A DNA stretch of 33,518 nt, taken from contig CP070836.1 of assembly GCA_020341795.1 (NCBI GenBank), forward strand, positions 1,057,169-1,090,686, written 5' to 3'. This DNA comes from Thermoplasmatales archaeon. Its GTDB lineage: Archaea; Thermoplasmatota; E2; DHVEG-1. Position numbers and translations under genes: made by a program. This document shows positions 5,301 through 31,953 of this stretch, in pieces. A model generated the notes under the pieces. That model saw only the letters and a list, made by a program, of their open reading frames with translations. It was not told where the DNA came from and did no database searches. The first letter of the stretch is position 1, and the number at the start of each line of letters is the position of its first letter.

Positions 5301-7367
5301 ATGAATAATAAGATAAGATTAATAATAATAGCATTATTTTTATTATCAATAATTACACAAACAGTAATCAGTAAGAAATATATATTACTAGATAATGAAA
5401 TTACAATTTACGTTGATAATGACAATACTTTAGGGCCATGGATTGGATCAATAGAATATCCATACAAGAATATATCTCAAGGTTTAGAAAATTCTTCTGA
5501 AAACTACAACATTTTTGTTTTAAATGGTATATACAATGAAAACCTTAACATAGATAAAAAAATAAATTTAATAGGGGAAAATAAAACAAATACGATAATA
5601 AATGGCAATTATAAAGGAACAGTCATTAAAGTTAATTCAGATTATGTAAACATACATGGCTTTACAATTAAAAACTCTAATGGACCAAATTTGGATGCAG
5701 GAATTAAAATAAATTCAAAAGATACAACCGTTTCAGATTGTATAATATTTAGAACGAGGATAGGTCTTTACTTTGATAAGACACATAACAATAAAATCAT
5801 TAAATGTATAATTAATACAAATGGAGAAGGAATATTTTTTGATACATGTAAAAACATCGAAATAATAAACACTGAATTTTGTCATAACGCAATTGGTATA
5901 AATTTTAGAAAATGTGAGAATTTCAACATTATAAATTCATATTTCCATGAACATGGTATAGGTTTGTTTTTTAATCATTCATCGCAGATAAACATATCGA
6001 GTTCAGCAATTTGTGATAACAACAATAATCAACCAGGTTGTTTTATTTACAATTCAACAGAATTTACAATACATAACTCAAATTTTATTCATAATGGTGC
6101 TGCAATAAGAATAGACAATAGTTCAGAATTAAATATCAATAATTGTACCTTTAGATACAACGCACATGATGCAATATATATGAAAAAAGGCTCAAAAGAT
6201 ATTACAGTTACAAATTGCAATATATCTGATAGCCTACGCTATGGAATATATATCAAAGATGGAGTATTCAAAATTGTTAATTCAAATATATACAACAACC
6301 ATCTCGATAGTATTCATGTGAATAAAGGAATAGTGAGTGCTCAAAAAAATTGGTGGGGTGCAAAAACTGGTCCATGGTTTAAAGGTGTAAAAATAATAGA
6401 TAGAATGAAATTAGTTAAAGGTCGACTAAAGCTAATACCATGGCGTCTCAAACCTGTTAGTAATAATGGTGCAAATTGGAAAGTTGAAGACGTTTTTATT
6501 AAAACAAAGGTACATGGTTATGGAGATGAGAACATTGATTTATCTGGAGATGACAGCGATGGTGATGGAGTACCTGACTGGTGGGAGTTATATTGGGGAT
6601 ATAATCCATTAGTTGCTGATGACCATGCAAACATCGATGAAGATAAAGATGGACTAAATAATTTTGAAGAATGCTACATGTATGAACAAAATTCAAATCC
6701 TTTTAGAAAAGACGTATTTTTAGAGATTGACTGGATGGTAACAAAAAGAAACAATAATCATTTAAATATTCCAGATGAAACTCTAATCCAAAAGGTTCAG
6801 AAAAAATTTCGCAATCACGGAGTTGAACTACATGTAAATTTTGGATCTGGGTCTAGTGCAGAACAAATACCTTATCAACCAAGGTTTAATTATGATACCC
6901 TTGTTGATCTTTACTGGGATTATTTCCTTCACAACGATTTAAACAATCCTAGAAAAAATATATTCCATTATGGTTTAATCTGTGATGAAGGAGCAGGTGC
7001 TGGTTTTGAGTTTATGGGCTGGGCTCATTGTAATGCATTTTGTATCTCATCCGAAATATTAAAATTTGTATATCCACAATATAGTTATGAATGGTTAATA
7101 GTTAATGGAGCTTTTCATGAACTAGGTCATACATTTGGTTTGTTTTCTGATGATTTTGGCGGCAATGACAATCGTGGAGCATTAAAACCTTCGCAGAAGG
7201 ATTTCTGGATTTATAGGAATTATAAAAGTATTATGCATTATCTTTACATTTGGAATAATGATTTAAATTATTCAGATGGTGATAATAGTCCAGGGGATTT
7301 TGATGACTGGAATAACTTTGATTACCAGTTTTTTAAGGATACAAATTTTGATTACCCAACAGGTTAA
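5301..7367 (+). CDS. Secreted beta-helix, calcium-repeat, metzincin-like protein
   Basis: Large exported protein of 688 residues. An N-terminal hydrophobic segment (about residues 5-24) is a signal peptide or anchor. Residues about 35-360 form a right-handed parallel beta-helix: IYNENLNIDKKINLIGENKT, many Asn-rich repeats such as NINNCTFRYNAHDAIYMKKG, ending with the archaeal surface-protein motif NWWGAKTGP. Residues about 415-465 carry two calcium-binding segments (DSDGDGVPDWWE, DEDKDGLNNFEE). The C-terminal domain has the zinc motif HELGHTFGL (H606, E607, H610) and a Met-turn-like SIMHY (M645). The residue where metzincins usually place a third His is Ser; GGNDN a few residues later may supply the ligand. 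A related gene lies at 15162. Likely an extracellular protease or adhesin; substrate unknown. Its TAA overlaps the stop of the convergent permease gene. Confidence 0.8.
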   Translation: MNNKIRLIIIALFLLSIITQTVISKKYILLDNEITIYVDNDNTLGPWIGSIEYPYKNISQGLENSSENYNIFVLNGIYNENLNIDKKINLIGENKTNTIINGNYKGTVIKVNSDYVNIHGFTIKNSNGPNLDAGIKINSKDTTVSDCIIFRTRIGLYFDKTHNNKIIKCIINTNGEGIFFDTCKNIEIINTEFCHNAIGINFRKCENFNIINSYFHEHGIGLFFNHSSQINISSSAICDNNNNQPGCFIYNSTEFTIHNSNFIHNGAAIRIDNSSELNINNCTFRYNAHDAIYMKKGSKDITVTNCNISDSLRYGIYIKDGVFKIVNSNIYNNHLDSIHVNKGIVSAQKNWWGAKTGPWFKGVKIIDRMKLVKGRLKLIPWRLKPVSNNGANWKVEDVFIKTKVHGYGDENIDLSGDDSDGDGVPDWWELYWGYNPLVADDHANIDEDKDGLNNFEECYMYEQNSNPFRKDVFLEIDWMVTKRNNNHLNIPDETLIQKVQKKFRNHGVELHVNFGSGSSAEQIPYQPRFNYDTLVDLYWDYFLHNDLNNPRKNIFHYGLICDEGAGAGFEFMGWAHCNAFCISSEILKFVYPQYSYEWLIVNGAFHELGHTFGLFSDDFGGNDNRGALKPSQKDFWIYRNYKSIMHYLYIWNNDLNYSDGDNSPGDFDDWNNFDYQFFKDTNFDYPTG

Positions 7368-8476
7368 TCCTCTTTCCATTTTGTTAGAATAAGTCCTGTA
7401 AGGAAAAATATTATTGCAAAGATTAGAACTATTACACTATGAAATATCGCGTCATCTGTTTTCAGATATATCATTGCATTTCTAAAGCCTTCATTTACAT
7501 AATAAAGTGGTAAAACTTTTGCTATAGTTTGTAGAAATTCTGGCATCTGTTCAAGTGGGAAAAACGTTCCTGCAAGAAACATCATTGGAAATGTTACAGC
7601 ACCACCTGCCATACCTGCTGATTCTTCATCTTTTACAAAACGACCAATGACCATTCCCATACCTGTGAACAAGAAACTTGTGGCAATTATAAGTATAAAC
7701 ATTAGTAATGAAATATGAATATTAAGGCCAAATAAAAAAATTCCAATAACAATTATTAGGAATGCAGAAACAAATGATAAAAATAATTGAAATAGCATTT
7801 TTGATAAAATCCACTCGGTTCTAGTAATAGGTGTTGTCAGAAGTTTTCTAAGAATTCCATCTTTTCTAAACTTTGTATTTCTCTCAAGGCTTCCATAAAT
7901 ACAAGTTTGCATAATTGTAAAACCAATCATTCCTGGTAAAAAGAAATCGATAAATTCAAACTCACCACTGATAGTTTCAATATCATCAATTAAAATTATA
8001 TCTTTTCCACCTGATATATTTTTGTTTAATTCAATTACAACTGCTGAGATAACACTTCTAATAATTGAATTTGTTTGCTGCTCACTTTGATCAAAATAAA
8101 ATTTGATGCTTGTAGTAACGTTTTCATCGAAATAGAAAGTATTAAGGGATTGTTCAAAGTCATCTGGAATTACAATTAAACGTTTAATATCATTGTTTTT
8201 GATATATGATAAAATATTTTCTTCTTCAATAACTTTGACATTCGTTTTAATAATATCTGTGTCGTTTAATATTTCAGTAAACATTACCGACATATCTGAA
8301 TCATCATAATCTACAACGACCAACTCATATTCTGCATCTCCAACTCCTGAAAAAATAGCGCCAAACATCAATATTAATAAAATCGGAAATAAAAGAGTCC
8401 AAAAAAGGGTAGCCTTACTTCTGTAGAAAGACTGCAGATCGGCTTTGAAACTTGCCCAAATTATACCTGCATTCAT
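7364..8476 (-). CDS. ABC-2 type exporter permease
   Basis: Membrane subunit of an ABC exporter, 370 residues. It has one N-terminal membrane helix (ATLFWTLLFPILLILMFGAI), a large extracytoplasmic domain (about residues 45-180), then five or six helices, with the typical segment NTKFRKDGILRKLLTTPITR between them. This is the ABC-2/YhgE-like layout of Drr, Nod and antibiotic or lipid exporters. The start codon overlaps the ATPase stop by four bases (ATGA), so the two are translationally coupled and surely partners. Cargo unknown. Confidence 0.9.
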   Translation of the reverse strand: MNAGIIWASFKADLQSFYRSKATLFWTLLFPILLILMFGAIFSGVGDAEYELVVVDYDDSDMSVMFTEILNDTDIIKTNVKVIEEENILSYIKNNDIKRLIVIPDDFEQSLNTFYFDENVTTSIKFYFDQSEQQTNSIIRSVISAVVIELNKNISGGKDIILIDDIETISGEFEFIDFFLPGMIGFTIMQTCIYGSLERNTKFRKDGILRKLLTTPITRTEWILSKMLFQLFLSFVSAFLIIVIGIFLFGLNIHISLLMFILIIATSFLFTGMGMVIGRFVKDEESAGMAGGAVTFPMMFLAGTFFPLEQMPEFLQTIAKVLPLYYVNEGFRNAMIYLKTDDAIFHSVIVLIFAIIFFLTGLILTKWKED

Positions 8477-9534
8477 TCGTCTTCCTCCGATAGCTTAGCA
8501 CCAGTTAAATGTAAAAATACTTCTTCTAGATTTGAGCGTCTAATATCTATTGCATCATAATCAATTGCTTCATGACGGAGAATTGACAATATTTCAAGAA
8601 CTCGTTCTTTGTGTTCAATATAAACTTCAATATCTCCATTATCTTCTTGTTTTGCATTAAAACCACTTTGCTTTAGAGCATCTATAGCATCTTCGGTTTT
8701 ACAGTTTTTAATATCAAGAATGCTTCCCTCACCAAATTTACGAATTAGTTCCTCTACAGACCCCTCAGCAATAATATTTCCTTTATGAATTATTGCAACA
8801 TGATCGGCAAGATACTCTGCTTCTTCCATATAATGAGTTGTAAGAAAAACTGTTTTTCCTTTATTTCTAAGGCCTGCAATTACTTCCCAAACTTCCCTTC
8901 TAGCTTTTGGATCAAGACCTGTTGAAGGTTCATCCAAAAAAACAATCTCGGGATTATTAACAAGTGAAATTGCAACACCAACACGTTGTTTAAGACCACC
9001 AGAAAGATTCATATAAAGTTTATTTTCTTGATCTTTTAAATCAAGATTGGCAATTATTTCATTAATACTTGCACGATTTTTGAACATTTTTTGAAAAAAC
9101 TCTAGCGTTTCACGAACAGTTAGTCTTTCAAAGGAGTGAAATTCTTGTGGCAAAACACCTATTCTTTCTTTAACCTGATCAAAAGAACTACTGATATCAT
9201 TACCAAGGATTTTTACAGCTCCAGCGGTTGGTACCCTGATTGATTCTATCATTTCAACAGTAGTTGTTTTGCCAGCACCATTTGGTCCTAAAAATGCAAA
9301 TACTTCACCTTTTTTAACTTTGAATGAAATATTGTTTACTGCAACAAGATCGCCATATTCTTTTCTAAGATTGGAAACCTCAATTGCAGATTCATCTGAA
9401 GAAATAGGATAACCAAATGTTACTTTTCCTTTTGTCGAGCAATAAGGACATATTACTTTTACAACTTCTCCATAACTACCTGAAGTGGTAATAGTATTAC
9501 CGCAATTAGGGCATTTAACAGTTCTCTCCATCAT
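8473..9534 (-). CDS. ABC exporter ATPase with N-terminal zinc ribbon
   Basis: ATP-binding subunit, 353 residues. All ABC motifs are present: Walker A GPNGAGKTTT, Q-loop LPQEF, signature LSGGLKQRV, Walker B VFLDEPSTGLDP and H-loop TTHYMEEAE. A C-terminal domain (about 265-345) of the DrrA/CcmA type follows. Unusually, residues 1-40 form a zinc ribbon (CPNCGNTI and CPYCSTKG). The open frame continues 31 codons upstream to 9627, but that part (IESILPLKIYNSFYIPSNIK) is hydrophobic and unlike the family; I prefer the ATG at 9534 (or the adjacent one at 9531). The start carries only a weak GAG ten bases upstream. Partner of the permease at 7364. Confidence 0.87.
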   Translation of the reverse strand: MMERTVKCPNCGNTITTSGSYGEVVKVICPYCSTKGKVTFGYPISSDESAIEVSNLRKEYGDLVAVNNISFKVKKGEVFAFLGPNGAGKTTTVEMIESIRVPTAGAVKILGNDISSSFDQVKERIGVLPQEFHSFERLTVRETLEFFQKMFKNRASINEIIANLDLKDQENKLYMNLSGGLKQRVGVAISLVNNPEIVFLDEPSTGLDPKARREVWEVIAGLRNKGKTVFLTTHYMEEAEYLADHVAIIHKGNIIAEGSVEELIRKFGEGSILDIKNCKTEDAIDALKQSGFNAKQEDNGDIEVYIEHKERVLEILSILRHEAIDYDAIDIRRSNLEEVFLHLTGAKLSEEDE

Positions 9535-9906
9535 AAAAATATCTCTTTTAATATTTGAGGGAATATAAAAACTATTATATATCTTTAAGGGTAAAATTGA
9601 CTCAATTGTTGGGATTTCTTCGAACATTTTCTCAGATTTTATATACTTTACGAGGATAAAATATAAACTGGTGTAAAATATGAATAAATAGAGATAAAGC
9701 CAATGATAGTTTAATGCTCTATCTTAGTATATATTTTGGTCGCATGTCATTTGTATTAATACCACCAAGAACTGTAAATGCATATTTGATCTTTGAAATA
9801 TTATAAAACAAATTAATAGATTTTTTTTAAAAATCTCTTTATAACTTTTTTTAATTAGGTAAATTTAATTACAAGACAATTATTGCTGTATCTTTGGAGA
9901 GAATCT
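9535..9906. other. Divergent intergenic region between the ABC ATPase and apgM genes
   Basis: AT-rich, 372 bases. CTTTATAAC near 9837 is a plausible TATA box for apgM. A 30-codon minus-strand frame with a TTG start (9811 down to 9719; contains KYAFTVLGGINTNDMRPK) looks coding-like but is too short to call; it may be the tail of a lost gene. No RNA gene is recognised. Confidence 0.4.
9896..9899 (+). promoter_or_regulatory. Shine-Dalgarno GGAG of apgM
   Basis: GGAG lies seven bases before the ATG at 9907 and so selects that codon over the upstream TTG at 9883. Confidence 0.65.
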
Positions 9907-15161: not shown

Positions 15162-16801
15162 ATGATAGCAGTGAAAAAAAGAAGTAAAAAAATCAATATT
15201 TTGTTAACCATATTTATAATCATATTAATTGTCTTACCGGCTTTATATTTATATTACAGTAATATAGATGATGAAGAAAAACCATTGTATGGAATTTCTA
15301 AAAAAATTGATAATAAAATAAGTCCACTAACTCCTCAAGCTGTTTTTATAGAAATGCATCGAATAAGAAAAAAAGGGATAATCAACGTTATGATTAATGC
15401 AGGTGTAAATATATTCGATACATCACCTACAATAGGACGAGAAATACAACATATCCTAGAAGGAATAAGACTTGGTATAGGGTGGAATAAAAAACCAATT
15501 TTTAACTATAAAACAAAAATTGATGGATTTAAATGGGATGGAAAATTAGATTTCGAAACATGGGACACCGATTATATGAATCATATCATAAAAAAATCAG
15601 TTGAAGAGGAACAACAAACAGTTAAAATTGATTTTTTCTTTATCGAAAAAAATAAAAAGCTATTACAGACAGAAATAATTGAAAGCGAAGGTTTCAAAAT
15701 AATTTATGATTTTAGAAATGGAACATGGGATGGAGATGATTATTTCAATGACAGTGACGGATATGGACATTTTAATGGCACACATTTTGAAATGTGGTTT
15801 TCAATATATCAAACAGATTTTGATGGAGATAAAATACCTTATTGGACAGAAGTAAACATTCTTAATACAAATCCAAAAATTGATGATTCAAAACATGATC
15901 CAGATAAAGATGGAATATCAACAAGCTGGGAATGGAAATGGGGATATAATCCTTTTATATGGGATAATCATACATATCTAGATCCAGACAGAGATGGTTT
16001 GCAAAATATAGAAGAATTCACTATGGAAAAATGGCTTGCTAATCCATTTTACCAAGATATTTATATTGAAGTTGATGAAATGGAAAAAGCACCTTTTAGA
16101 TTATTTGAAATAAAAAATGAAGATGGTAAAATCCTGCCAAGAATTAAGAGATCACGGCTTGATGGATGGGATCATGTATTCTGGGAGGAATCTCAACAAA
16201 TGTTAATGGAACGATTCAACGAACATGGAATAACTGTTCATATTGATGATGGAATTATGGGTGGTGGTGGTGACAAATTACCATTTAGTCAAAACCCTGG
16301 AGCGCATATGTTTCCCGAGGGAGTAATAGCAGGATTTATAAAAATAATTTCTCAGATGAAAGAAAGGGAATATTCAGATATTTAGCAGTCATCCATGGCG
16401 GTGGATGGTGTGCACCACAGGATGAAAAAAATTTACATGATTGTATGACAGTACCAAGTAATAAAAAATTTTTCGAAAGTCAACTTAATATGGCAATAAC
16501 CCCCAGAACAAAAAGAATTGGAAGAGCAATTCAAGTAATTCATGAACTTGGTCACAGTCTTGGTTTTAATAACATGGGAGGAGTTGATAATTCAAGCAAA
16601 AACTTTGGAGATCCTCCAGATTACCCATGGCATGATTATGTCAGCGTGATGAACTATGATTACTTTAGACAAAGATACTTTGATTATTCAGATGGTTCAC
16701 ACGGTGAAAACGATTTTGATGATTGGAGCAATGCTGATCTTACAATCTTTCAAAAAACAATTGATGACACATATGGTATTGAATGGGAAAGAAAATATTA
16801 A
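15162..16801 (+). pseudogene. Secreted calcium-repeat, metzincin-like protein, broken by a frameshift
   Basis: Two adjacent frames (15162-16385 and the one ending at 16801) are one gene of about 546 codons. It begins with AAGGA eight bases before the ATG, a basic N-terminus and one membrane helix, then an unrecognised domain (about 40-205). Calcium-type repeats follow (about 205-295: DSDGYGHFNG, DFDGDKIPYWTE, DPDKDGISTSWEW, DPDRDGLQNIEE), then a metzincin-like domain with HELGHSLGF (His about 461) and SVMNY. The right half parallels the gene at 5301. Adding one T at 16335-16337 or one A at 16340-16344 joins the frames and yields NNFSDERKGIFRYLAVIHGG, which aligns with the paralogue. Real mutation or homopolymer sequencing error cannot be told apart here. 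The TAA overlaps the stop of the convergent peptidase gene. Confidence 0.8.
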
Positions 16802-22771: not shown

Positions 22772-23851
22772 ATGTTTTCTCTAAAAGATAAAAAATTAGC
22801 AGATAAAATTGTAAATGATATAAAAAAATCAGATATAAAACTAAAGTTTATGCATGTCTGTGGTACCCACCAAGATACACTTGTAAAACATGGACTTGAT
22901 GCACTTCTTAAAAAATGTGGTGTTGAAATTGTGCAAGGACCAGGTTGTCCAGTATGTGTTACAACTGCAAGAGAAATAGAAGAGATGCTAAATTTAGCAC
23001 GTACAGGTAAAATCGTTACAAGTTTTGGAGATATGATAGATGTCCCTGGCGAAGAGCATTCCCTTCGAAGTATGAAAGAAGAAGGATATGACGTTCGAAC
23101 AGTATATGGAATTGAAGATGCTGTAAAAATTGCTCAAAATCACCCTGAAAAAGAAGTCGTTTTTATAGCAATAGGTTTTGAAACAACAGCACCAACAACA
23201 GCATCTGTAATTCTTAATAAACCTCCAAAAAATTTTTCAATTCTTTGTTGCCATCGTATAATCCCACCTGCATTGAAAGCTATTGTTGAAATGGGTGAAA
23301 TCAAACTTAATGGTCTAATAGAACCAGGTCATGTTTCGACAATTATAGGAATCAAACCTTATGAATTTCTTTCAAAAAAATATAAAGTTCCTCAAGTTGT
23401 TGCAGGATTTGAACCCATTGATGTATTAATGGGTGTCTGGATGCTTGTAAAACAGATAAAAACAGGTAAAGCATTTGTTGAAAATGAATATAGTCGTGTA
23501 GTCCATCCCAATGGTAATATAAAAGCAAAAAAAGCATTAAATGATATTTTTGAACCTTGTGATATTACCTGGCGTGGTTTTTCTGTTATTGAAAAATCTG
23601 GTTTAAGACTAAAAAGTAAGTTTGAAGAATATGATGCTCGTAAGAGATTCAATGATGATCTTGTTGAAATCCATCTGAAAGAATTCCATGAACCAGAAGG
23701 TTGTATGTGTGGAGAGCTACTTAGAGGTCTTGTAACACCTTTTGAATGTCCATTATTTGGTCAAGCTTGTACTCCAGAGTCACCAATCGGTCCTTGCATG
23801 GTAAGCATTGAAGGGAGTTGCAATATCGGATATCGCTATTCCAGTAAATAA
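22772..23851 (+). CDS. hypD: Hydrogenase maturation protein HypD
   Basis: Iron-sulfur scaffold of 359 residues on which the Fe(CN)2CO moiety of [NiFe]-hydrogenase is assembled with HypC and HypE. Conserved pieces are MHVCGTHQDTL, QGPGCPVCVT, FGDMIDVPG, AIGFETTAPTTA, GFEPIDVL, PEGCMCGELLRG and the C-terminal cysteine set around FGQACTPESPIGPCMVSIEG, which binds the 4Fe-4S cluster. The ATG follows the hypC stop directly. hypE and hypF are elsewhere in this window; hypA and hypB are not seen. Confidence 0.95.
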   Translation: MFSLKDKKLADKIVNDIKKSDIKLKFMHVCGTHQDTLVKHGLDALLKKCGVEIVQGPGCPVCVTTAREIEEMLNLARTGKIVTSFGDMIDVPGEEHSLRSMKEEGYDVRTVYGIEDAVKIAQNHPEKEVVFIAIGFETTAPTTASVILNKPPKNFSILCCHRIIPPALKAIVEMGEIKLNGLIEPGHVSTIIGIKPYEFLSKKYKVPQVVAGFEPIDVLMGVWMLVKQIKTGKAFVENEYSRVVHPNGNIKAKKALNDIFEPCDITWRGFSVIEKSGLRLKSKFEEYDARKRFNDDLVEIHLKEFHEPEGCMCGELLRGLVTPFECPLFGQACTPESPIGPCMVSIEGSCNIGYRYSSK

Positions 23852-26035: not shown

Positions 26036-28216
26036 TTACTTATTTCCTATTATTGCATTTTGTCCTATTGCAATTCCACCATCACCATTAGGTACTTTGT
26101 TATGAACAACTAATTTTAATCCTGCTTTTTTAACCTGTTTTTCAATCATCTCATTTATTGGTGTATTATATGTTACTCCTCCAGAAAGTCCAATGTTTTT
26201 AATATCATTGATTTTTGCATAATCTATTGCAATAGTTGAAAGTTGATCTATTATTGACTTGATAAACGAATAAGCATAATCTGCTTTATTCTGTCCAGAC
26301 AAAAATTTGTTAATTTTTTCATCAAGTTGCCTAAAAAGATCAATTGTTCCAATAACTCCGTTTTTAACATCCACATCAAAAGAATATTTTGGCTTACCAT
26401 TTGCTAAATATCGTTCAAGTTTCATAGCAGGTTCACCATCATAAGTACGCTCACAACATATATTTAGATAACATGAAACTGCATCAAGAACACGACCAAG
26501 GCTACTAATCTGAGGTGATTTATCCATAAGTTTTGATAAAATCTCTGCTTCCATTCCTTTAAACACTATTTCCTTTCCAAATTTTTTAAAAATCGCAAAG
26601 ACCAATCTACGAGGATCAAGTGTGGCTGCATCACCACCGATAAGTGGGATGTACTCAAGATGCCCAATTCTTTTAAAATCATCATAATTTGAATATAATA
26701 TCTCTCCACCCCAGAATTTTCCATCAGATCCATAACCTAGACCATCAAGAGTTAGCACAACACATTCATCTAAAAATTGTTCAACTTGAAGTGAAACTGC
26801 ATGAGCCCAATGATGTTGAACTTCAAAAAATGGAACATTATATTCATCTGCAAATTTTCTAGCAACAACTCTTGTCTCATATCCGGGATGCATGTCCATT
26901 ACCACTCCATCTATATCTGGTTTTTTCATCGTAAGATTCATTATATGACGAAGAGCTTCCTCTAAAAAAACAACTGTTGAGTAATATTTTGAATTTCCGA
27001 TATATTGTGTTGCAAAAATATTTTTATCAGATGAAAAAGCGCCACAAATATTTTCTCCAGCACCAACACTTATTATATGACTATCATATGAAATAGGTAA
27101 TGGATCAGGTACATAACCCCTGGATTTTCGAAGAAAAAAATAATTTCCTTTCCAAATTCGTATTACTGAGTCATCTACACGATTAGGAATATCTCTATTA
27201 TGTAAAAGATAATAATCTGCATCAATTGAAAAAGCATCTTCATCGGATGTTATCATCGCCTCTCCAGGTATATTTGAAGATGTCATTACAAGAGCATCGG
27301 TTTTAAGATGGTTAAAAAGTAGATAATGAAGACCAGTGTATGGTAGAAAAAGTCCAACATTGTCAAGACCAGGTGATGCAAGATCTAGATTTTTCTTTTC
27401 AACAAGTACAATTGGTCTATTTTTAGATGTTAAAAGTTTTTTTTCATCATCTGATATTCTTGCATATTTTACAGCGGTTTTAATATCTTTAACCATTATT
27501 GCAAAAGCTTTCTGAGGGCGATTATACCATTCTCTAAAGCGTGGTATCTCATCAAGGTTACAACATAGATGCATTCCACCCCAGGATTTTATCACACCTG
27601 TTTTTCCTTCATCGAGTTGATTTGCAAACCTTTTAATTGCATGTTTTCCCCCTAAGTCTTTTCTACTATTGTCATACAAATGATAAATCGGACCACATTC
27701 TGGACACGAAATTGTTTGTGCATGATATCGTCTATTCAATGGATTCATGTATTCTTTTTGACAGGACACACATAATGGAAATTTATACATAGATGTACGT
27801 TCTCTATCGTAAGGTACTTCCTTTATTAAGCTGTATCTTGCTCCACATACTGTACAGTTTGTAAATGGAAACATGTATCTTTTGTTGTTTTTATTAAAAA
27901 GTTCATTTATACAATCGTTACAAATTCCAACATCTGATGGTATCTGTGAATGTCGACTTCCATGTTTACTATGTAGAATCTTAAAATCTATAAAAACACG
28001 GTCATCTTTTGATGTTTTAATATTAGTTATTTTAGCAATTGATGGAAGATTTTTTTTTATTTGTCTTATAAATTCATCTTTGTTTTTATCAATTACTACC
28101 TCTACTTCAGAACCTTTGTTTAATACGTAGCCTTTTAGATCCATTTTTTTTGCAATACGATAAATAGTTGGTCTAAAACCTACACCTTGTACAATCCCTT
28201 CGAAGATAAGTTTCAT
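26036..28216 (-). CDS. hypF: Carbamoyltransferase HypF
   Basis: Makes the cyanide ligands of the [NiFe] site from carbamoyl phosphate and passes the carbamoyl group to HypE; 726 residues. Domains in order: acylphosphatase (1-90, GIVQGVGFRPTIYRIA), zinc-finger pair (about 105-180, CNDC, CTVCG, CVSCQ, CPECGP), YrdC-like ATP-binding domain (about 195-375, GVIKSWGGMHLCCN, RPIVLVEKK, TSSNIPGEAMI) and Kae1-like domain (about 385-726, GAGENICGAFS, VQHHWAHAVSL, LDGLGYGSDG, LSGGVTYNTPI, PNGDGGIAIGQ). Complete. Two bases separate it from the hydrogenase ferredoxin gene, so it is the last gene of the hydrogenase operon. Confidence 0.95.
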   Translation of the reverse strand: MKLIFEGIVQGVGFRPTIYRIAKKMDLKGYVLNKGSEVEVVIDKNKDEFIRQIKKNLPSIAKITNIKTSKDDRVFIDFKILHSKHGSRHSQIPSDVGICNDCINELFNKNNKRYMFPFTNCTVCGARYSLIKEVPYDRERTSMYKFPLCVSCQKEYMNPLNRRYHAQTISCPECGPIYHLYDNSRKDLGGKHAIKRFANQLDEGKTGVIKSWGGMHLCCNLDEIPRFREWYNRPQKAFAIMVKDIKTAVKYARISDDEKKLLTSKNRPIVLVEKKNLDLASPGLDNVGLFLPYTGLHYLLFNHLKTDALVMTSSNIPGEAMITSDEDAFSIDADYYLLHNRDIPNRVDDSVIRIWKGNYFFLRKSRGYVPDPLPISYDSHIISVGAGENICGAFSSDKNIFATQYIGNSKYYSTVVFLEEALRHIMNLTMKKPDIDGVVMDMHPGYETRVVARKFADEYNVPFFEVQHHWAHAVSLQVEQFLDECVVLTLDGLGYGSDGKFWGGEILYSNYDDFKRIGHLEYIPLIGGDAATLDPRRLVFAIFKKFGKEIVFKGMEAEILSKLMDKSPQISSLGRVLDAVSCYLNICCERTYDGEPAMKLERYLANGKPKYSFDVDVKNGVIGTIDLFRQLDEKINKFLSGQNKADYAYSFIKSIIDQLSTIAIDYAKINDIKNIGLSGGVTYNTPINEMIEKQVKKAGLKLVVHNKVPNGDGGIAIGQNAIIGNK

Positions 28217-28218
28217 TT

Positions 28219-28620
28219 TTATTCAACAATTAACTCTTTAGAATAAGGATCTACATCAGCTAGAAGGAACTCATTACTCATACTCAAACATTTTGTAGGA
28301 CATATATCATTACATTGACTACAGAAACAACACCTTGCTAAATATATTTTGATTTTTTTGTCTTTTTCTTTAAATTCAATTGCTTCACATGGACAAACCT
28401 TAAGACATAGTTTACACCCAATACATTTTTCTTTATCGTATATTATTTTTCCACGGAAACCTGGAGGTGTCGGAACTGGTGGATTGAGTTTTACCTTACC
28501 TGCACCTACTGCTTCTAAATATTTAGTAGTACTTGATGGTTGATATTTTGCTGGAAATTTATTAGTCCAAGGTTTTTTAAACATCTGTCTAAAAACAGGT
28601 CCTAACATACTAAATCCCAT
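28219..28620 (-). CDS. Hydrogenase polyferredoxin subunit, 2[4Fe-4S]
   Basis: Electron-transfer subunit of 133 residues, equivalent to EchF, MbhN or NuoI of group 4 hydrogenases and complex I. Two CxxCxxCxxxCP motifs: C66, C69, C72, C76 (CIGCKLCLKVCP) and C97, C100, C103, C107 (CFCSQCNDICP). The N-terminal 60 residues (FKKPWTNKFP, PPGFRGKIIYD) are those of the NuoI-like family, not of a free ferredoxin. The ATG overlaps the large-subunit stop by one base (TAATG). It links the catalytic small subunit to an external ferredoxin. Confidence 0.92.
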   Translation of the reverse strand: MGFSMLGPVFRQMFKKPWTNKFPAKYQPSSTTKYLEAVGAGKVKLNPPVPTPPGFRGKIIYDKEKCIGCKLCLKVCPCEAIEFKEKDKKIKIYLARCCFCSQCNDICPTKCLSMSNEFLLADVDPYSKELIVE

Positions 28621-29852
28621 TAATGCATCAACCTCCTTGTTTTTTCAACGCTCAATCGATGTAGTTGTTCTTTATTTAATAAAGAGCGTTGACCATTATT
28701 TACAATTGCAACACGATTAGTACAACTCATACATGGATCAGTACTTGCTGCAACAATTGGTATATCTGCAATTTGCTCACCTTTAAGCATTGGAATCCAT
28801 GGTAATATATTATTATATGTAGGTGCTCGAACTTTCCATGTAAATGGAGCATCTTCACCTGTTAGTTTTACATAATGTATAACTTCGCCTCGTGGTGCTT
28901 CGTGACGTCCTACTCCTTCACCATTTGCTTTTTTAAGTTGTGCTAGAACTTTTGCAATCTTTGGTTCTGATACTATATCACCTGCTGGCATTTTATCAAC
29001 ACATTGTTCAATAAGTTCAATAGATTGTTTAACTTCGAGTAAACGTTGAATAATCCTATCATATACATCTCCATTTACCTCACCTGTAAGTGCTTCTGGT
29101 GTAATATAATCAATATCTAGATCACCATATGCAAAATAACTTGTATCCGCTCGAAGATCTTTTTTGATTCCTGATGCACGAGTAGTTGGTCCAACTGCAC
29201 AGAGCTTTAAAGCATTTTCTTTTGTAAGAATTCCTGCTCCTTGACTTCGCATTTTAATTGTTTTATCATCTAAAAAAATATGAGCAAGTTTACCGAAATT
29301 ATCTTTAAAATATTTTAAATCTTTTTGAATACGTGGAAGCATATCTTTAGTGATGTCACGTCTTATTCCACCTATCGTCATTATTCCTTTTGTAACACGG
29401 TTTCCACATAGATACTCTGTTAGATCCATTGCTCTTTCTCGTATCTCCCATGTAAGAAACAAAACAGTATCAAAACCTATTTCATGAGCAGCAACACCAG
29501 CCCAAAGTATATGTGAGGTGATACGTTCAAGTTCTCCTTGAATGACACGTAAGTATTCTGCACGCTCTGCAACTTCAATATCTGCAGCTGCTTCAATTGC
29601 TAACGTAAATGCTGCAGGGTGACAATATGAACAAATGCCACAAATACGTTCTGCAAGATAAAGAATCTGAATTGGATTTCGCTTCCTTGAAGCCCATTCA
29701 ACAGCACGATGTACATGACCAAGTTTTACATCTATATCAATAATTCTTTCACCAGAGATTTCAAACTCAAAAAACACTGGTTCTTTTAAAGCAGGATGAA
29801 TTGGACCAATAGGAACATGATATGTAGTTTTTGTCGTTGCTTCTGGACTCAT
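28620..29852 (-). CDS. Group 4 [NiFe]-hydrogenase large subunit
   Basis: Catalytic subunit of 410 residues, homologous to EchE, MbhL, HycE and NuoD. Both nickel-binding pairs are present: ERICGICSYCHP near the N-terminus (C71, C74) and DPCMSCTNR near the C-terminus (C374, C377), so it should be a true hydrogenase, not a complex I relative that has lost nickel. Other marks are GHVHRAVEW, GIMTIGGIRRDI and GRHEAPRGEVIHYV. A 33-residue tail follows C377; whether it is cleaved is not known, and no maturation endopeptidase gene is visible. The start overlaps the upstream stop (ATGA). The subgroup within group 4 is not assigned. Confidence 0.93.
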   Translation of the reverse strand: MSPEATTKTTYHVPIGPIHPALKEPVFFEFEISGERIIDIDVKLGHVHRAVEWASRKRNPIQILYLAERICGICSYCHPAAFTLAIEAAADIEVAERAEYLRVIQGELERITSHILWAGVAAHEIGFDTVLFLTWEIRERAMDLTEYLCGNRVTKGIMTIGGIRRDITKDMLPRIQKDLKYFKDNFGKLAHIFLDDKTIKMRSQGAGILTKENALKLCAVGPTTRASGIKKDLRADTSYFAYGDLDIDYITPEALTGEVNGDVYDRIIQRLLEVKQSIELIEQCVDKMPAGDIVSEPKIAKVLAQLKKANGEGVGRHEAPRGEVIHYVKLTGEDAPFTWKVRAPTYNNILPWIPMLKGEQIADIPIVAASTDPCMSCTNRVAIVNNGQRSLLNKEQLHRLSVEKTRRLMH

Positions 29853-30382
29853 TTCTTCACCTCATGTAAATTTTTATAAAGTTTTTCAAGACCTTTCTCA
29901 TCACGTCTCCACGGGTAAACATCTTTTGGGAAATCATCTGGAAGGAAAAGTCTTCTGTTATCAGGAATATTTTTTATTTTAACACCTAGAAATTCTTGTT
30001 TTTCACGTTCAGTTATAAGAGCACCTGGGATTAGGTCGCATATTGTTTCAATTTCGGGTTTGGATTTTGGCAGTTCAACAGATATATGTAAATTTATTTC
30101 CCCAAGTCTTGTTCCATAGTTTACAGTGAAATGATAAATAAGTTCAATGTTATTTCCAAGATCATTACCTGATATAATTGCTAGGTGTGGATAATTATAT
30201 TCAATTATATATTTTACTATTTCTTTAAAAGCTCCTTTATCTATCTTCATCCAGATACTAGGGGTTTCATTCTTCTTAGAGCCTGCTGCTCTTTTTTTAA
30301 TATCAGCACTTATAATATTTGTATTAAATTTATCCTTCAAATATTTCACATGTTCCTCAGGAGTTTTTTGATCTTTTGTCAT
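29849..30382 (-). CDS. Hydrogenase NuoC-like subunit
   Basis: A 177-residue subunit equivalent to EchD, MbhK or the 30-kDa (NuoC) subunit of complex I, which bridges the large and small subunits. Recognised by the terminal segment ITEREKQEFLGVKIKNIPDN then RRLFLPDDFP and YPWRRDEKGL, and by the mid-protein strand VNYGTRLGEINLHISVELPK. The N-terminal 45 residues are charged and divergent. Two bases after the small-subunit stop and overlapping the large-subunit start by four bases. Confidence 0.88.
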   Translation of the reverse strand: MTKDQKTPEEHVKYLKDKFNTNIISADIKKRAAGSKKNETPSIWMKIDKGAFKEIVKYIIEYNYPHLAIISGNDLGNNIELIYHFTVNYGTRLGEINLHISVELPKSKPEIETICDLIPGALITEREKQEFLGVKIKNIPDNRRLFLPDDFPKDVYPWRRDEKGLEKLYKNLHEVKK

Positions 30383-30384
30383 TA

Positions 30385-30819
30385 TTAACCACCCTCCAAA
30401 GTTTCAAGTTTTACCCATGCCTTTGCAACTGCATTAATAATTGCTTCAGGACGTGGTGGACATCCAATTACATGAACATCAACTGGTAAAATCTGATTTA
30501 TAGGTCCCACAAGGTTGTATGATTCATAAAAGACATCTCCTGTGTTTCCGCAGTTACCCACACAAATGACAGCTTTTGGATCTGCCATTTGATCATATAC
30601 ACGTTTAACCTTATCTACCATCTGTCGTGATACAGGACCTGTAACAAGCATTACATCTGCATGACGTGGGGTACCAACAAGTTTAATTCCAAAACGTTCA
30701 ACATCATAACGTGGACAAAGAGCAGCTATTATTTCTATATCGCAACCATTACATGATCCACTGTTACAATGATAAACCCATAGAGCTTTTTTAAAAGATT
30801 TAGGTAATCCTTTTGCCAT
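30385..30819 (-). CDS. Group 4 [NiFe]-hydrogenase small subunit
   Basis: Electron-relay subunit of 144 residues, homologous to EchC, MbhJ and NuoB; carries the 4Fe-4S cluster next to the nickel site. Cluster cysteines: HCNSGSCNGCDIE (C23, C26), CVGNCGNTGD (C86 or C90) and GCPPRPEAI (C120). Typical PADVMLVTGPVS-like segment is HADVMLVTGPVSRQM. Length is normal for group 4, shorter than in other [NiFe] groups. First gene of the operon; GGGAGG (30830-30835, minus strand) lies ten bases before the ATG. Confidence 0.93.
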   Translation of the reverse strand: MAKGLPKSFKKALWVYHCNSGSCNGCDIEIIAALCPRYDVERFGIKLVGTPRHADVMLVTGPVSRQMVDKVKRVYDQMADPKAVICVGNCGNTGDVFYESYNLVGPINQILPVDVHVIGCPPRPEAIINAVAKAWVKLETLEGG

Positions 30820-30870
30820 TAACTAAATACCTCCCTAAATGAACACTACAGTTTCAGGTAATCTAGTATA

Positions 30871-30883
30871 GTATTTAAAAATT
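30871..30883 (-). promoter_or_regulatory. TATA box of the hydrogenase operon
   Basis: Minus-strand AAATTTTTAAATAC, about 52 bases before the small-subunit ATG, would give a leader of about 25 bases carrying GGGAGG. It separates the operon from hypE upstream, though read-through from hypE is possible. Confidence 0.45.
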
Positions 30884-30897
30884 TATGTAATTAATTA

Positions 30898-31953
30898 TTA
30901 ACAAATCCTTGGAACAGGGTCTCCAATTGGTTTGTGAAGGTTTCTTCTTCCACCAATAGTTGTTTCAAGGACTACACCTTTAATCTTATTTGTTGCATGA
31001 CCAATTATTTCAGCGTTTTTTCCAAGTGAATGTTTTTTAATTTCTTTTAAAATTTCATCTGCTTTTTCTTTTACAACACCAAGGACTACTTTACCTTCGT
31101 TTCCAATCTCTAGAGGATCGATTCCTAACATATCACAAGCACTGCGAACACCATTTGGAATTGGGATTTTTTCTTCTTCAATAACAATACCTACTTTTGA
31201 TTTATCGCTGAATTCATTTAGAGTGTTTGCAAGCCCTCCCCGTGTTGGATCTTTTGCAGATACGACTCCACCAATGGCAAGTGTTTTTTCCATTAAGCTA
31301 TTAACTGGTGCTATATCTGATTTTATTTTTGTTTCAAAACCATATCCTTCACGAAAACTCATAAGAGCAATACCATGTTCTGCAATATTTCCAGAAAGAA
31401 TTATTATATCCCCCAATTCAATATTTGAATCAAGTAACCAATTAGATTTAAATTTTCTATATCTTTTAATCTCTTTGATATTACCTTCAAGATACTTACT
31501 TTTTTTACCAATTCCAGTTGTATTAATCATAAACTCCTGAATAGCCCCCTTTTCAACTACTTTTGTATCTCCCGTTACAATAGGAACATTGGCATTATTT
31601 GCAGTTTCACCCATGCTTTTTACAATTCTTTCAAAGTTTTTAATAGAAAGACCTTCCTCAATGATAAAACCAGCTGAAAGAGCAAAAGTAGTTGCACCCA
31701 TAACAGATATATCATTTACTGTTCCAGCAACAGCGAGAGATCCAAGGTCACCACCTGGAAAAACAATAGGTTGAACAGTATGTGAATCAGTTGAAAATAC
31801 AATGTCATCTATCACAGCCGAATCATCAAGCATAGAGAGTGATACTTCGCCTTTTTGTATGTCTTTTCCAAAATATTTTAAAATTTTTTGTTTGATGAGT
31901 ATGTCCATCATCTCTCCACCAGCACCTTGTGCCAGTTTGATTTTATCAGCCAT
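30898..31953 (-). CDS. hypE: Hydrogenase maturation protein HypE
   Basis: Dehydrates the carbamoyl group received from HypF to a cyano group, using ATP; 351 residues, PurM-like fold. Diagnostic features are GAGGEMMDILI at the N-terminus, LDDSAVIDDIVFSTDSHTV, GGDLGSLAVAGTVNDISVMG, PIVTGDTKVVEKG, DPTRGGLANTLNE and the extreme C-terminal PRIC, whose last cysteine is the carbamoyl and cyanide carrier. Lies 78 bases upstream of the hydrogenase small subunit on the same strand. Divergent from a small membrane protein. Confidence 0.95.
   Translation of the reverse strand: MADKIKLAQGAGGEMMDILIKQKILKYFGKDIQKGEVSLSMLDDSAVIDDIVFSTDSHTVQPIVFPGGDLGSLAVAGTVNDISVMGATTFALSAGFIIEEGLSIKNFERIVKSMGETANNANVPIVTGDTKVVEKGAIQEFMINTTGIGKKSKYLEGNIKEIKRYRKFKSNWLLDSNIELGDIIILSGNIAEHGIALMSFREGYGFETKIKSDIAPVNSLMEKTLAIGGVVSAKDPTRGGLANTLNEFSDKSKVGIVIEEEKIPIPNGVRSACDMLGIDPLEIGNEGKVVLGVVKEKADEILKEIKKHSLGKNAEIIGHATNKIKGVVLETTIGGRRNLHKPIGDPVPRIC

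Follow-up and report, generated by a model that had tools for sequence, protein, structure and literature searches.

Architecture and neighbourhood of the focal gene

The window analysed here, a stretch of 33,518 nucleotides, belongs to a 1.79 Mb source genome held in a single contig, and its relatives lie in the Thermoplasmatota. At positions 5301-7367 a first-pass annotation had described a beta-helix joined to calcium-binding segments and a protease-like domain, and all three parts were recovered in this reading frame by Pfam, NCBIfam and reading of the sequence (Table 1). The beta-helix is matched by Pfam Beta_helix (4.6e-19) and NosD (2e-10), both above their curated cut-offs, and by NCBIfam NosD_copper_fam (1.1e-21), where its 76.9 bits fall far below the cut-off of 300 bits. 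Like NosD and other beta-helix proteins the focal protein passes the Pfam thresholds, but unlike them it continues from the helix into calcium repeats and a protease domain. The two DxDxDG-type segments start at residue 417, and Pfam TSP3_bac was found in 4 of 54 relatives. The C-terminal part contains HELGHTFGLFSDDFGGNDN, SIMHY, YSDG and DFDDW, and most orthologues begin, as the focal protein does, with a hydrophobic N-terminus.

Table 1. Coordinates of the focal gene, its parts and motifs, the adjoining transporter genes and the frameshifted paralogue (window positions unless a locus is named).
Feature	Position	Strand	Description	Basis
Focal gene	5301..7367	+	688 aa: signal peptide, beta-helix, calcium repeats, metzincin-like protease domain	ORF and family-wide conserved architecture
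Probable signal peptide	5301..5372	+	residues 1-24, MNNKIRLIIIALFLLSIITQTVIS	read by eye from sequence
Right-handed beta-helix	5475..6359	+	residues about 59-353, NWWG at end	Pfam
NWWG closing the beta-helix	6348..6359	+	residues 350-353	NWWG/NYWG at residues 335-430 in nearly all orthologues
TSP3-like calcium repeats	6549..6677	+	residues 417-459, DDSDGDGVPDWWE ... DEDKDGLNNFEE	NCBIfam MtsD, TSP3-repeat part, 3.8e-5
Metzincin-like protease domain	6696..7364	+	residues 466-688	AlphaFold2, PDB matches, profile match
HELGH	7116..7130	+	606-610: H606 and H610 zinc histidines, E607 general base (predicted)	conservation; end of modelled helix
Ser616, canonical third-ligand position	7146..7148	+		direct reading
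GGNDN	7158..7172	+	620-624; D623 (bases 7167-7169), proposed third zinc ligand	column conservation, spacing
Met-turn SIMHY	7227..7241	+	643-647	conservation
YSDG ... DFDDW	7269..7310	+	657-670, conserved C-terminal element; D666, D669 invariant	alignment
ABC-2 permease and ATPase region	window 7364-9627; L223 10339-12425; L224 6874-9047		tail to tail with focal gene	
Paralogue, N-terminal piece	15162..16385	+	calcium repeats and start of protease domain	
Paralogue, C-terminal piece, other frame	16445..16801	+	HELGH 16541-16555, GGVDN with Asp 16586-16588, SVMNY	

The tetrapeptide NWWG lies at the end of the beta-helix, as had been noted, and recurs there as NWWG or NYWG in nearly all orthologues. 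Across the beta-helix clade it stands about 257 residues ahead of HExxH, and because this arrangement is repeated in about 30 further loci the architecture is not a product of chance. Three longer relatives (822-843 aa) also have NWWG, at a greater distance from HExxH; together with the spacing kept in the clade, this indicates that the beta-helix fusion is real and old.

An ABC-2 permease gene stands tail to tail with the focal-type gene, with an ATPase gene adjoining, in the window, in locus L223 of the same genus and in locus L224 of another genus of the family (neighbouring genes are named here from reading their translations). The ends of the focal and permease genes overlap by four bases in the window and in L223, and L224 additionally keeps aminopeptidase-like, PKD-like and phosphoglycerate-mutase-like neighbours. 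The synteny is partial, being absent from L225. Elsewhere in the window, translations suggest that the minus strand carries HypF-like, hydrogenase-subunit-like and HypE-like genes at 26036-31953, and that a HypD-like gene lies at 22772-23851.

The window also holds a paralogue, beginning at 15162, which had been described as sharing GGVDN, SVMNY, YSDG and DFDDW. The motifs are indeed kept, but they lie outside the reading frame that starts at 15162: this stops at 16385 and the motifs follow in a second frame, at 16445-16801, so that the paralogue is frameshifted in this assembly. Two relatives (L005 and L098) are intact across the corresponding region, and the frameshift may be either a sequencing error or the mark of a young pseudogene.

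The predicted zinc site and the column of its candidate third ligand

Metzincins are defined by the motif HExxHxx(G/N)xx(H/D) together with a Met-turn (PMC11674741). Residues 606-616 of the focal protein read HELGHTFGLFS; HELGH lies within a modelled helix (202-217), a glycine (G613) follows three residues past the second histidine, and the Met-turn is present as SIMHY. At the position of G613 most of the family has Gly, and the remainder Asp, Asn, Ser, Ala, Glu or Gln. Three residues after this glycine, where His or Asp is canonical, we read Ser616, followed by GGNDN at 620-624, in agreement with the first-pass annotation, and the candidate ligand D623 stands seven residues further on. Since the canonical third ligand is missing, we do not file the focal protein as a canonical metzincin. 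In the models the helix stops at the second histidine or one residue beyond it, so the additional residues are predicted to form a loop.

We classified 133 HxxxH-bearing domains after removal of duplicates. The canonical HExxHxxGxxH occurs in seven of these, namely five bacterial rows and a near-identical archaeal pair (L060/L081), and the loop of the other 126 carries x-G-H or G-x-D (one has A-V-D). Of these 126 domains, which lack the canonical third ligand, 125 were aligned with MAFFT, unguided; at the position of D623 the alignment shows Asp in 82 sequences and His in 43, and neither a gap nor a third kind of residue. The expectation that the Asp of GGxDN would be conserved across homologues is thus upheld in a modified form: the column is 100% Asp or His, but a third of the sequences have His. 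In the same alignment H606, H610, Y641, S643 and Y647 are invariant (125/125), E607 is found in 121 sequences (His in four) and the methionine of the Met-turn in 118 (Leu in seven). Apart from column 623, the only columns in which every residue could bind a metal are those of H606, E607 (His in four), H610, D666 and D669.

The distance from the second histidine to the proposed ligand is 12 in most D types, and the remaining D types and every H type have 9; rarer values are 10 in two rows and 14 and 29 in single rows, as compared with 5 in canonical metzincins. Downstream, 17 residues separate the ligand from the tyrosine that precedes the Met-turn in 108 rows (57 D12, 13 D9 and 38 H9). D9 and H9 sequences align without gaps over 34 residues, L074 and L072 for instance being identical at 21 of the 34. 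The gapless alignment and the common spacing of 17 place Asp and His at the same site, and they exclude the alternative register in which H types are aligned to D types on the conserved Gly, with His one residue before Asp. A zinc ligand would be expected to exchange between His and Asp only, as is seen here, and D623 appears, on these patterns of conservation, to be the third zinc ligand, displaced by seven residues from its usual position. Among distant members of other classes, L198 and L206 have GID; L202 (G257), a very divergent homologue, has the zinc loop HELGHVLGLYPGELMGNGNGW, lacking Asp and His alike ahead of the Met-turn region.

It could instead be argued that the domain is metzincin-like but that D623 has a structural role, in the loop or with calcium, and that zinc is held by H606 and H610 together with another residue, such as D666 or D669, or with water. 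The invariance of D666 and D669 in all 125 sequences would suit such an arrangement, and the ligand role of D623 is itself read from sequence. However, in the relatives that have the classical third histidine D669 is also acidic, D666 is mostly Asp and the YSDG/DFDDW element is largely kept, so these two residues do not compensate for a lost histidine and are excluded in that capacity; column 623 is the only one to alternate with the classical His. If the Asp were structural, Asn, Glu or Ser should moreover be acceptable in its place, instead of an exchange with His only, and we consider a structural role for D623 unlikely. Several of the bacterial classical-His relatives also carry Asp in GGxD, and the presence of both residues in one protein suggests that this Asp may serve another role there.

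A further candidate in some beta-helix members is the histidine of DDHGGNDN, in place of the Asp. In the profile alignment the bacterial third His coincides with focal residue F619, and many orthologues have His at this position; yet the focal protein has Phe and its close orthologues Phe or Tyr, which excludes the DDHGG histidine as their third ligand, while the Asp is invariant within the clade. Even for the members that possess this histidine, such an assignment seems to us highly improbable, and ligation by the Asp remains the preferred reading.

Fold, recognition and evolution of the family

AlphaFold2 modelled focal residues 395-688 with a mean pLDDT of 86.3 and a pTM of 0.87, and a GH-type relative (L065) with values of 92.7 and 0.88. 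The leading PDB matches were acutolysin A, CpaA, archaemetzincin, ADAM17 and PAPP-A for the focal model and a venom metalloproteinase, mirolysin, ulilysin and ADAM-8 for L065. The metzincin-like fold suggested by the first-pass annotation is favoured by the predictions, the best matches of both models being metzincins, though remote ones (TM at most 0.51, E 1e-3 or weaker).

A closer link is provided by four bacterial proteins with the classical HExxHxxGxxHGG site, from a Burkholderiaceae MAG (L104), Andreprevotia (L108), a Thiotrichales MAG (L110) and a Spirochaetes bacterium (L111). The archaeal profile matches these with a probability of 99.8 and an E-value of 1.5e-27 over a region that spans HExxH, GGND and the Met-turn. 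They have in common with the archaeal domain KDxFIxxDYM, HxxxHxD, FHY, HExGH, GGND, YxSVMNY and DDW, and differ from it in that their third His occupies the canonical position, and they showed no beta-helix. L104 just passes the cut-off of Pfam Reprolysin_3 (24.2 against 22.4 bits), whereas the archaeal members fall below it. Judged by this profile match, the archaeal proteins are a metzincin-like family homologous to proteins that pass the metzincin motif test.

With a search profile (A2) built from four paralogous protease domains, members of the family were detected in 78 of the 293 Thermoplasmatota genomes sampled, with up to 10 matches per genome and a concentration in the window's own family, order and class. 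GTDB genomes yielded 76 loci, nearly all titled Thermoplasmata, Thermoplasmatota or Euryarchaeota and four of them bacterial. The source genome has six family genes and seven matches, because the frameshifted gene at 15162 is counted twice. No peptidase model of Pfam-A or NCBIfam reached its cut-off in any of 54 members tested, nor in the paralogues, which is in line with the earlier suggestion of an unrecognised metzincin subfamily. Taken at the level of sequence, this is a large archaeal metzincin-like family that lies outside the Pfam and NCBIfam models and has a putative third ligand that is relocated and interchangeable between His and Asp. A scan of viral contigs gave two matches only, which cover the calcium-repeat region, and we reject a viral origin on that scan. 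A phylum-wide scan around Andreprevotia added mostly calcium-repeat matches, and a PHROGs search gave nothing convincing.

In a quick IQ-TREE phylogeny of 130 rows, calculated without the ligand loop, with no root inferred and with a distant bacterial outgroup, the deeper archaeal branches are Asp types, within which the H9 type is nested. The H9 label requires a minimum of five changes on the best tree, and strongly supported branches make at least one of these unavoidable. The beta-helix proteins group together in a single clade (30 rows, support 100) in which every row is of the D12 type. Within it, a subclade of L135, L136, L038 and L040 (support 97) has HHLGH in place of HELGH and keeps the Asp; these proteins retain the zinc histidines with the general-base Glu replaced by His, and on that ground may be inactive. 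The L223 contig carries both such an HHLGH gene and, a few genes away, a normal HELGH copy.

This sister clade, with its HHxGH motif and retained Asp, and the missing canonical third ligand of the focal protein would fit a different reading, in which a decayed protease domain on a beta-helix adhesin makes the focal protein a non-catalytic binding protein. The loss of the Glu is nevertheless limited to one clade of four rows, and H, E, H, D and the Met-turn are kept in the focal protein and most of the clade, so we judge a non-catalytic focal protein to be unlikely; an active enzyme is the reading that we follow below.

L060 and L081 each have a second protease gene, the two being near-identical, with the classical HELGHQLGLPH and no GGxD. 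In L060 a GVDN-type copy adjoins this classical-His gene, so that a canonical site occurs inside an otherwise relocated family. Tentatively, and with somewhat less than even confidence, we propose that the ligand was relocated within one family: the loop would have lengthened and the classical His been lost, a downstream Asp would have taken its place and later given way to His, the archaeal pair would have become classical again and one clade would have exchanged its Glu for His. The order of insertion, loss of His, takeover by Asp and return of His is one that we infer from the sequences.

Comparison with known metalloproteases and proposed role

An aspartate as third zinc ligand is already known in snapalysins, thuringilysins and igalysins (PMC12237041), and the novelty of the present family thus lies in where the residue stands. 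In igalysins (M64, IgAse), snapalysins (M7) and thuringilysins (M6) the Asp follows three residues after the motif glycine, whereas in most members of the archaeal family it lies 9-12 residues after the second histidine and is interchangeable with His. The IgAse motif HExxHxxxGxxD, with one extra residue, was called unique (PMC12237041); it is absent from the focal protein, where HELGHTFGLFSDDFGGND has Gly at +3 and not at +4. The snapalysin motif HExxHxxGxxD is likewise absent, Ser616 occupying the place of the Asp, and Pfam M7 gave no match. Leishmanolysins (M8, GP63) offer a parallel in that an insertion separates the motif glycine from the third ligand (PMC11957388), but theirs is large and precedes a His, while the archaeal loop is longer by only 4-7 residues in most members and ends in His or Asp.

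The pappalysins (M43: ulilysin, mirolysin and PAPP-A) are among the best PDB matches of both models, but have the canonical HExxHxx(G/N)xxH, which the focal protein lacks, and an identity to it of about 12%; Pfam M43 gave no match. Archaemetzincins (M54) have HExxHxxGxxH followed by conserved cysteines (PMC3427221), none of which follows the motif in the focal protein, and are a remote fold match only. The Asp-zincins of M35 (deuterolysin) have an Asp ligand and no Met-turn; the focal protein has a Met-turn and no Pfam M35 match. MEROPS M62 is mentioned as a membrane metalloprotease of Euryarchaeota (PMC3890501).

By analogy, the main warning against ligation by D623 is the crystal of Thermus TTHA0227 (PDB 2EJQ). 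This protein resembles the focal domain in its HExxH and in a four-residue insert in the motif, with an Asp conserved 10 residues past the second histidine, and in the crystal this Asp is too far away for ligation (PMC3890501). It differs in being of the mini-zincin type, described as without most of the C-terminal subdomain (PMC3890501).

Taking the evidence together, we consider it likely that the focal protein is secreted and acts as a zinc endopeptidase, and that it represents a distinct metzincin-like family, with zinc bound by H606, H610 and D623 and with the protease presented on a stalk of beta-helix and calcium repeats. According to this model E607 would act as the general base and M645 of the Met-turn would lie under the metal, with D623 ending a loop seven residues longer than the canonical one (HExxH-x12-D as against HExxH-x5-H/D). 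The calcium repeats would serve as a rigid spacer and form, with the beta-helix, a long calcium-stiffened extracellular stalk; the beta-helix probably binds a polymer or surface and would so present the protease to its target. The role of the protease may be the breakdown of extracellular protein. Related MBG-D archaea have been credited with extracellular peptidases and a life on detrital protein, and the extracellular peptidases that a published survey lists for them include C10, C11, C13, C25, M09B, M14 and M28, with no metzincin among these (PMC6461988).

The metzincins are defined by a third ligand at a fixed spacing, and the archaeal family departs from this: the site at which His and Asp exchange is shifted downstream by 4-7 residues in most members and by as many as 24 in one. 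As homologues with the classical site exist, relocation of the ligand is directly testable within one fold. Profile-based annotation by Pfam-A and NCBIfam overlooks these proteins. With this family, a set of predicted secreted proteases that had gone unrecognised can be added to the repertoire of archaea whose relatives are supposed feeders on sediment protein.
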